A stretch of DNA of 37,322 bases, taken from a virus. The notes under the pieces are model-generated. The model was not told where the DNA came from. It saw nothing but the letters and a program-made list of their open reading frames with translations, and made no database searches. Position 1 is the stretch's first letter, and each line of letters begins with the position of its first letter. Positions 13,919 through 29,446 of this stretch are shown one piece after another. Location: IMG/VR virus record IMGVR_UViG_3300048834_000269, positions 1-37,322 of that record; one strand, written 5' to 3'. Position numbers and translations under genes: made by a program.

Positions 13919-14079
13919 AATGTATGAATGGGTTGATATTTGGCGAGATAACTGTTATCGTGTTTCATGTGAAATAGCCCTTTACGCCGCATCAGGTAGA
14001 TGATGTAGCGCCCATGCTGGTACTTCTCATTGCGCATGCCGTTGCAATTACAATATCCTATATAGGTGAACTCAGTCAT
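13825..14079 (-). CDS. Small hypothetical protein, 84 aa
   Basis: ATG 14079 overlaps the stop of the upstream membrane gene by 8 nt. A longer in-frame start at 14163 only mirrors that gene. The product has a Cys pair, YCNCNGMRNEKYQHGRY, then IYLMRRKGLFHMKHDN and a helical end, which looks like a compact phage protein. Its last 94 nt overlap the chaperone gene in another frame, so its C-terminus is the less certain part. Function unknown. Confidence 0.5.
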   Translation of the reverse strand: MTEFTYIGYCNCNGMRNEKYQHGRYIIYLMRRKGLFHMKHDNSYLAKYQPIHTLCSYVNNLGLNVSEESLSRQLNLTLSMASTR

Positions 14080-19043: not shown

Positions 19044-19576
19044 AGTTTATCAAGTATTTCGGTATTAAACGTATATGGTTTAGTGCTGTTCCATATCTCT
19101 TTGGTGTTCATAGTTAGTCTAAAAGCATCAGCATTTTTTCTTAAATCCCGCTTATACTTTTGGAGTTCTCCTATACCAAATGAACGATAGAGGAATGAAT
19201 TTATATTATGCTGGCAGCCTAAACTACCAAAAGGCTCAACGTTATGTTTTTTGACAAACTGCCCCTCATCTAAATACCACCCACTTATTTGTGGGGCAAT
19301 AAAGATATGGGCTTTCTTTTCAAAGAACAGCACATCCCTGTACTCTCTCGCCTGGTTGCACCATTTGGCTATGTCGGCTCCCTTTTTGACATGCCCCTTC
19401 TTGATTTCAATGCCAATAGGGTATTCCCGCGCTTTATCAGAGCAGTGAAATAAAATCAAGTCGATCCGCTTTGTTCGACATAAAGACCACTCCTCAAAAT
19501 ATACATCAAACCATTTCCCAAACCAATTGGTGAGCCTGTCCTGTAAAACGGCTTCGGACATTTCGTGTAGTTGCAT
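19040..19576 (-). CDS. PD-(D/E)XK-type nuclease-like protein
   Basis: The product is 178 aa. RIDLILFHCSD (Asp39) followed by PIGIEIKKGH (Glu57, Lys59) gives the D...ExK core of the PD-(D/E)XK nuclease fold, with a helix WCNQAREYRDVLFF after it. Such small enzymes in replication operons usually resolve or trim DNA. It is coupled to the primase-helicase by ATGA. ATG 19576 lies 14 nt after a terminator-like hairpin. A second in-frame ATG at 19561 is possible. Exact substrate unknown. Confidence 0.65.
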   Translation of the reverse strand: MQLHEMSEAVLQDRLTNWFGKWFDVYFEEWSLCRTKRIDLILFHCSDKAREYPIGIEIKKGHVKKGADIAKWCNQAREYRDVLFFEKKAHIFIAPQISGWYLDEGQFVKKHNVEPFGSLGCQHNINSFLYRSFGIGELQKYKRDLRKNADAFRLTMNTKEIWNSTKPYTFNTEILDKL

Positions 19577-19589
19577 ATAGAAAAAGAAA

Positions 19590-19672
19590 ACCCCACGAGT
19601 ACCAGTCGCGGGGTGTGTTTTGCATTAAGTAATGCAATGAGTTCTTAGTCGGCTGGTACTACGCCTAAGAAC
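19590..19672 (-). ncRNA. Three-hairpin structured RNA with loop-loop complementarity
   Basis: Read on the minus strand: hairpin 1 has stem GTTCTTAG/CTAAGAAC (19665-19672/19641-19648, 8 bp) and a 16-nt loop. Hairpin 2 is an 8-bp stem (19630-19637/19620-19627). Hairpin 3 has a 9-bp stem (19606-19614/19590-19598) with one G-U pair, a 7-nt loop CTGGTAC, then TTTTCTTTTT. The whole loop of hairpin 3 is complementary to GTACCAG in loop 1, so a kissing interaction or pseudoknot is possible. The G-U pair would be a C-A mismatch on the plus strand, which supports minus-strand RNA. It is either a small RNA with its own terminator or an attenuator leader of the nuclease and primase genes. No known family recognised. 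Confidence 0.7.
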
Positions 19673-19674
19673 CG

Positions 19675-20349
19675 TTACGCAAATATACTACCCTGTTTTG
19701 GTTTTACGACCATCAGTTTATCATATTGTCGGAGAAAATCTTCAATAGACCAAACGACCGAATAAACCCCTCCAGTTTTCTGCACCATCTCTCCGTATTC
19801 AATCTGATTCTTTTTATGCGTATCTCCTGGCGCTTTTACTTCAATCTTCCACGGTATGCCGAAAGGGTGATCTGGGTGTTTAAGGTTTGTATCAATATCC
19901 TGCATCCCATTCTTGCTACTGGACGGAATACGCTTAGGCTTACCATCGACTATAATAACACGTCCTTCATTTCCGGTACGGTTGGCGAAATGCCCGGACC
20001 ATGTAAGAAAGTCGATGATATAGTTCTGTATGCCGTTGGCGGTCGAGTTGTCCGGCTTGTCGGGTTCTATAAAATGCCCGTCCCTGACCCAGTGAGGATA
20101 TTCTATTGTTTGATAAGCCAGTTTCGCCTCACGCAGCCGCCTAAACGCCTCCTCTGAAACCATTACTTTACGTTTCGCCGGCTTGCGCATCTTGCGCAGT
20201 ATCTTCTCAGCGTCGCCCACAGAGGCCACAGGGAGTTTTACAGAGGCTTTATCGGCGGCAGCCTGTACTTTACCCAGGTCTTGCCCGGCTATCTGCCAAA
20301 TCTGCTGTTTAAGGGCTTGTAGGGTGTTATCGTATTCAATATGGTTCAC
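19675..20349 (-). CDS. VRR-NUC-like nuclease
   Basis: The product is 224 aa. The C-terminal half has GIQNYIIDFLTWSGH, then GMQDID (Asp151), PWKIEVKAPGD (Glu170, Lys172), KNQIEYGEMV (Gln182) and YSVVWSIEDF. This order is the VRR-NUC / PD-(D/E)XK pattern of phage Holliday-junction-type nucleases. The N-terminal 80 residues are helical and basic and may bind DNA. The start is GTG 20349, 15 nt after a terminator-like hairpin. Its stop lies 2 nt before the structured RNA. Confidence 0.75.
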   Translation of the reverse strand: MNHIEYDNTLQALKQQIWQIAGQDLGKVQAAADKASVKLPVASVGDAEKILRKMRKPAKRKVMVSEEAFRRLREAKLAYQTIEYPHWVRDGHFIEPDKPDNSTANGIQNYIIDFLTWSGHFANRTGNEGRVIIVDGKPKRIPSSSKNGMQDIDTNLKHPDHPFGIPWKIEVKAPGDTHKKNQIEYGEMVQKTGGVYSVVWSIEDFLRQYDKLMVVKPKQGSIFA

Positions 20350-20390: not shown

Positions 20391-20396
20391 CAATGC

Positions 20397-28996: not shown

Positions 28997-29446
28997 ATGA
29001 GTATGAGAGGATATTTTGGAATCGGGATATTAGACCCAAAAACGACAGATAACATTGGTACTCTTTGGCGGTCGGCTAATCTGTTTGGCGCAGCTTTTAT
29101 ATTTACGATTGGTGGAAGATATAAGAAGCAGCCGACCGACACTATGCAGACATGGAGGCATATACCTCTACACAATTACGCAACCTTTGAGTTGTTTTAT
29201 AATTCAATGCCGTATAACTGCAAATTAATTGGTGTTGAGTTGGACGAAAAATCTGTGCCTATATCAAAATTCGTTCACCCGGAAAGAGCAATCTATTTAC
29301 TTGGTGCGGAAGATCACGGATTAACAAAAGAAGCAATTACCTGTTGCCATCATATCATACAACTTCCGGGAGAATATTCAATGAATGTTGCTGTAGCTGG
29401 TAGTATTGCTCTTTATGACCGGATAAACAAACTAACCACCCCTTAA
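28997..29446 (+). CDS. SPOUT-type RNA 2'-O-methyltransferase (TrmH/SpoU-like)
   Basis: The product is 149 aa. All three motifs of the SpoU/TrmH knot are present: motif 1 NIGTLWRSANLFGAA (19-33, Asn19 and Arg25), motif 2 YLLGAEDHGLT (100-110) and motif 3 MNVAVAGSIALYDR (129-142). It would methylate a ribose of tRNA or rRNA. The size is that of a minimal TrmL-like domain. ATG 28997 or 29003 may be the start. It is isolated in a GC-palindrome-flanked slot, so it may be a later acquisition. Confidence 0.85.
   Translation: MSMRGYFGIGILDPKTTDNIGTLWRSANLFGAAFIFTIGGRYKKQPTDTMQTWRHIPLHNYATFELFYNSMPYNCKLIGVELDEKSVPISKFVHPERAIYLLGAEDHGLTKEAITCCHHIIQLPGEYSMNVAVAGSIALYDRINKLTTP

Follow-up and report, generated by a model that had tools for sequence, protein, structure and literature searches.

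What lies in the short gap between an endonuclease-like gene and the replication genes of the virus IMGVR_UViG_3300048834_000269, and what could it do there? In the window, that is, the whole stretch of 37,322 nucleotides that was analysed (positions 1–37,322 of the record), hairpin arms occupy this gap from the stop of the upstream gene at 19675 to the next ATG at 19576. The preliminary description had read the gap as a structured minus-strand RNA filled by three hairpins, and the predicted fold bears this out: the three hairpins are the fold of the minus strand at 19680–19580, with an energy of −31.5 kcal/mol compared with −21.1 ± 3.0 kcal/mol for shuffled sequences (z = −3.4; 1 of 200 shuffles was equally good). 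The features of the region are as follows.

19687–19680, minus strand: −7 box for sigma-ABfr, TATATTTG, a perfect TAnnTTTG (consensus match; recurs before H1 in relatives).
19673–19640, minus strand: hairpin H1, 5′-terminal in the predicted RNA (fold, loop complementarity, architecture in relatives).
19660–19653, minus strand: H1 loop segment AGTACCAG, which pairs with the T loop (complementarity).
19637–19620, minus strand: hairpin H2 in the linker, TTGCATTACTTAATGCAA, specific to the window (fold).
19614–19590, minus strand: terminator hairpin T, with its loop at 19605–19599 (terminator scan, fold, relatives).
19589–19580, minus strand: U-run of T, TTTCTTTTTC, ending just 5′ of the start codon at 19576 (sequence; equal layout in relatives).
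20349–19675, minus strand: upstream endonuclease-like gene (weak phrog_93 endonuclease match, E = 5e-7).
19576–16737, minus strand: operon led by the RNA, encoding a 178-aa protein and a primase-helicase.
19576–19040, minus strand: the 178-aa protein, first gene downstream.
19043–16737, minus strand: VapE/BT4734-type primase-helicase (Pfam VapE-like, E = 3e-29; BT4734-like_N, E = 3e-15).

Both flanking genes had been taken for nucleases. The upstream assignment stands on its weak profile match; the downstream one is unproven, as Pfam and PHROG gave no match for the 178-aa protein. Shortly before the nuclease start at 20349, the minus strand carries a strong terminator-like hairpin at 20391–20364 (GGAGTCCGC..GCGGGCTCC), after which comes a TATCTTTA box. 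A kissing partner was looked for and none was found for this hairpin, so the operons of the window seem to be individually bounded. Further upstream of the replication region (21423–21007, minus strand) is a small protein made up mostly of the C-terminal DNA-binding domain of DnaA (Pfam E = 9e-22), possibly an origin-binding protein, and a SpoU-type RNA methylase is encoded on the plus strand at 28997–29446 (Pfam E = 5e-20).

As the preliminary description had observed, the complete 7-nt loop of T, CTGGTAC, has its perfect complement in the H1-loop sequence GTACCAG (19659–19653), and the match extends to 8 nt when the closing A-U is counted (AGTACCAG/CTGGTACT). None of 200 dinucleotide shuffles of the window gap contained a kissing H1/T pair. 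The window holds one extra copy of AGTACCAG, at 14017, which is about what chance would give as a second loop target. The pattern AGTACCAG-N-GCATTACTTAATGC has seven matches in IMG/VR, in two unrelated groups, apparently coding and without the architecture, and these were dismissed as chance. The strand had been identified from a G-U pair; this pair in T is the only wobble of the window element and is weak evidence. The minus-strand assignment itself is supported by a comparison of 19 elements, in which folding of the sense strand is on average 5.6 kcal/mol more favourable than that of the complement (Wilcoxon p = 5e-4). In the window and its relatives, T has the sequence form of an intrinsic terminator, a G+C-rich hairpin followed by a U-run, typically with 5–7 U among the first 8 nt past the stem. 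The middle hairpin H2 was rejected as a conserved part, since most relatives have no equivalent of it in their linkers of 12–29 nt.

The preliminary description had allowed for absence of the element from all relatives. A nuclease profile search retrieved 43 loci, and all 21 non-redundant gaps behind the nuclease (window included) contain H1 and a terminator-like hairpin with complementary loops; 16 were detected by our scanner and 5 by eye (L014, L016, L031, L044 and L045). The element is absent where the next gene directly adjoins the nuclease. The relatives are metagenomic contigs, some of them fragments. Four viral contigs (L002, L010, L011 and L012) have the upstream nuclease or the downstream primase in common with the window, and their gaps hold H1 and a terminator whose loops are complementary in letters unlike those of the window (CCACGAC/GTCGTGG, TAGCCG/CGGCTA and CCGCGAC/GTCGCGG). 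Element sequences are mostly wholly different, with nothing in common outside close pairs, and the match between an element's own H1 and T loops spans 6–11 nt. Geometry is not uniform: T loops are larger in six members (L016, L028, L031, L037, L044 and L045), where some enclose an inner hairpin and the complementarity spans 8–13 nt; variant coordinates are L028:6540–6671, L031:760–880, L044:2570–2680, L045:6460–6590 and L016:1768–1880.

The T hairpins of L017, L030:2106–2183, L040, L043 and L051 have in common a GGGGA/GAAC-type internal loop below the kissing loop; in L014 the internal loop is AGTA/GAA and resembles loop E. Internal loops of this sort may determine at what angle the kissing loop projects. 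One contig, L030, carries two elements with different loops (586–670 and 2106–2183). Searches of cultured phages with the nucleases, at the DNA level and by tblastn, gave no matches or only marginal partial ones, and a single genome scan for prophage relatives yielded one remote match with no convincing element in it. The cultured Flavobacterium phage FPSV-S1 (L021:12950–13037) has an AT-rich candidate of similar layout between VapE and VRR-NUC genes, which is doubtful because its kissing segment is self-complementary.

Could an ordinary terminator have met a matching loop by chance? Intrinsic terminators are common, and the loci examined contain 85 strong ones, but only six of these have a kissing partner and five of the six are the element described here; kissing as a general trait of the terminators of these phages was rejected on the same count. 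Shuffling of 17 gaps produced a kissing pair in 0–2.5% of cases per gap. The composite of a kissing H1/T pair, a −7 box and an ATG within 30 nt occurs 17 times in 966 kb of element-bearing and comparison phages, compared with 0.25 times per shuffled set; these 17 matches are not fully independent, as the element is identical in L058 and L063 and another match is the reverse strand of an L030 element. When loop pairings were shuffled, none of 100,000 trials reached the observed total, in a test that is biased upward because most elements were chosen for complementarity and some are related.

The least biased support is covariation in close relatives, a check that the preliminary description had named and that turns out positive in stems and loops. 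L040 and L051 share 95.5% identity across 1.1 kb, and their T hairpins, stem ends aside, differ by one base, located in the loop (TGGCAG to TGCCAG); the H1 loop shows the matching compensatory change (CTGCCA to CTGGCA), and the H1 stems contain two more compensatory pairs. Between L002 and L011, an A-U pair of the kissing helix is replaced by G-C, and L010 and L012 show compensatory changes in their stems. A chance match is thus highly improbable, and the comparative evidence would already contradict it unless the relatives are a selection artefact. Judged from sequence, the RNA is structurally of the kissing-loop kind, having two loops with selected complementarity.

The primary promoter of Bacteroidota has the form TTTG/TANNTTTG, and its RNA starts 4–5 nt past the −7 box (PMC6847099). 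In the window, the TAnnTTTG box lies just ahead of H1, and the RNA is therefore predicted to start at H1, at about 19675–19674, one or two bases ahead of the hairpin. Of 23 elements, 14 have a perfect −7 box ahead of H1 (0.6 expected) and 22 have one with at least a 5/6 match (6.6 expected), usually at a distance of 4–12 nt; the −33 box is often weak. With a promoter directly before H1, the RNA would be a leader transcript in its own right, and more than a 3′ end on the nuclease mRNA. The promoter type and gene families, rather than host records, suggest that the hosts are Bacteroidota.

In nearly all elements (L016 is ambiguous), the end of the T stem is separated from the next clear ATG by 6–31 nt, which leaves no space for a promoter, so that every mRNA of the next gene must have T in its leader. 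The next operon, where identified, is almost always a replication module, and at least five unrelated primase/helicase kinds are represented:

VapE-type primases: the window and L010–L012.
PrimPol: L002.
DnaG/Toprim with or without DnaB: L014, L035, L045 and the second element of L030.
DUF3987: L016, L032, L037, L040, L043, L044 and L057, with L051 as a near copy of L040.
DnaB with DnaD-like or Lin1244-type initiators: L017, L028 and L031.
BT4734+DUF5906: L058.

One or two small genes stand between the element and the primase/helicase gene in some loci; the L027 contig ends before the downstream module could be read, and in L030 the genes behind the first element encode a homing endonuclease and a methylase. 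The endonuclease-like gene is not a consistent part of the system: in L058, the element lies before the primase and the nuclease behind it. This locus and the second element of L030, which precedes a DnaG-type primase, led us to reject the nuclease as the functional partner. In four pairs (window/L002, L010/L017, L014/L017 and L044/L057), the nuclease and promoter DNA is 88–95% identical, and this homology stops 1–20 bases ahead of H1, where the RNA would start; the same break is seen in two further pairings inside the L010 group. As upstream homology ends close to H1, the RNA belongs to the exchangeable replication module, and from these alignments its start region appears to mark the seam of module exchange. 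The promoter at H1, the terminator abutting the start codon and the replication module, not nucleases, as the partner all go beyond the preliminary description.

Two alternatives bear on this arrangement. The pre-primer RNA II of ColE1 primes replication, and the transcript described here could similarly be part of a replication origin, priming or activating DNA synthesis under the control of its hairpins. Such a role would suit an element that always adjoins the replication module and is exchanged with it, but a primer needs no strong terminator with a U-run and the module's own primase should suffice, which makes this reading very unlikely. The second alternative is a stable structural RNA or 3′ end, whose kissing fold gives protection from RNases or a shape for a protein, with replication control being incidental. 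Hairpins at both ends, a predicted 5′ end that falls at H1 and conservation of shape alone, not sequence, would all fit. Nevertheless, the strict placement directly before replication operons and the U-run abutting the start codon would be left unexplained, and we consider this reading unlikely.

The preliminary description recognised no known RNA family, in agreement with our Rfam search: at the gathering score, no family (RF01695 included) matched the window or its relatives, and RF01695 was not matched in a permissive search of the window stretch either. Permissive matches to the ClpQY promoter (E = 0.3) and iscRS (E = 1.3) were far below gathering score and were rejected. We found no description of the element in the open-licence literature. 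In ColE1 replication control, RNA I and RNA II kiss through loops of about 7 nt; that contact joins two RNAs, whereas the kissing described here is within one RNA. The put RNA of HK022 is a promoter-proximal hairpin pair that acts on termination in cis; its sequence is conserved and its terminators are distant, whereas our element is free in sequence and its second hairpin is the terminator.

Phage P4 blocks its replication genes by premature termination, with the CI RNA pairing to complementary sites in the same leader (PMC4825925). Like this RNA and the c4 RNA of P1 and P7 (RF01695), the element places complementary segments in one phage leader before replication genes, an arrangement linked to premature termination of transcription. 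Unlike them, it forms its complementary segments from the loops of neighbouring hairpins, of which one is the terminator; it measures about 85 nt, its sequence is not conserved, and most carriers lack signs of lysogeny. Plasmid pT181 combines kissing hairpins with attenuation (PMC3753616), and kissing initiates antisense binding in several plasmid replication controls (PMC4485353). The element is like the pT181 and pIP501 attenuators in having termination and kissing hairpins in the leader of replication genes (PMC3753616, PMC4485353), but the plasmid systems depend on an antisense RNA that is transcribed separately from the other strand. For the element, no enrichment of antisense −7 boxes was seen (3 of 20 versus 2.5 expected, a count of promoter boxes and not of transcription), and an antisense regulator was therefore rejected. 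The element thus resembles the P4 and plasmid controls in outline but is not a member of either.

The pairing could also act in trans, with a terminated, loop-addressed RNA of about 95 nt accumulating and binding the loops of further nascent leaders from the same phage and thereby limiting replication genes or excluding co-infecting relatives, much as plasmid copy-number RNAs and the P4 CI RNA do. The loop letters change from one relative to the next but stay complementary, as specificity addresses would, and the placement before replication genes parallels the leader pairing of P4 (PMC4825925). Drift with compensation accounts equally well for the loop diversity, however, and pairing in cis would hide both loops. 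A role in lysogenic immunity looks less likely because an integrase was detected in only 1 of 18 records searched (some of them fragments), and that record lacks the element. Overall, we regard an RNA acting in trans as a tentative and rather unlikely alternative.

Predicted folds indicate how pairing in cis might work. A pT181-type pre-emptor was looked for: when the RNA is cut just past the T loop, a state that would arise briefly during transcription, this loop already pairs to the H1 region in 13 of 17 folds predicted without pseudoknots, and the predictions show this transient helix only as long as T is unfinished. In the predictions for the full length, H1 and T are both present and no alternative antiterminator helix is evident. 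A kissing helix of 6–8 bp is compatible with both stems, which makes the pairing look like a lock, or a device that orders folding, rather than a mutually exclusive switch. The loop–loop switch first proposed therefore survives in spirit, as a gate between termination and read-through, and not as a choice between exclusive structures. That T alone resembles a strong terminator counts against the kissing lock.

We favour, at a probability of roughly 0.55, a promoter-proximal leader or attenuator of the replication operon with a kissing-locked terminator, which can also release an RNA of about 95 nt. Host RNA polymerase with sigma-ABfr would start from the TAnnTTTG box, located where the preceding gene ends, and the RNA would begin at H1, which would fold first and present its loop. 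As the ascending arm and loop of T emerge from the polymerase, the two loops would pair over 6–8 bp. T would then close and, together with the U-run, end most transcripts, leaving the short RNA bounded by hairpins on both sides. Read-through into the start codon 6–31 nt further on would be confined to a limited or regulated fraction, allowing the primase/helicase to be made, and the loop–loop helix would tune how T forms or holds. As T adjoins the ribosome loading site, it would hold back translation too. The terminated product is possibly a small phage RNA, as first suggested. The structure and location in this model are strongly supported, comparison of sequences pointing to the RNA strand, the two hairpins, selected loop complementarity, the promoter box, the terminator form and the position; termination in vivo, the read-through fraction, the direction of control and any regulator are what we infer. 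A broader proposal, which we hold to be doubtful, is a sequence-free RNA class in which each module owns a self-kissing leader, the terminated RNA signals dosage or exclusion specifically for its replicon and the RNA start is the recombination seam for module swaps.

The element appears to be an undescribed class of structured RNA in many phages that appear to infect Bacteroidota, and sequence-based RNA searches would miss it because only shape and loop complementarity are kept. It marks the site at which replication modules are exchanged. Found with primase/helicase systems of at least five unrelated kinds, it points to a shared RNA checkpoint ahead of phage DNA replication, and the leader RNA probably represents a new RNA-based switch or limiter that acts on the start of phage replication.
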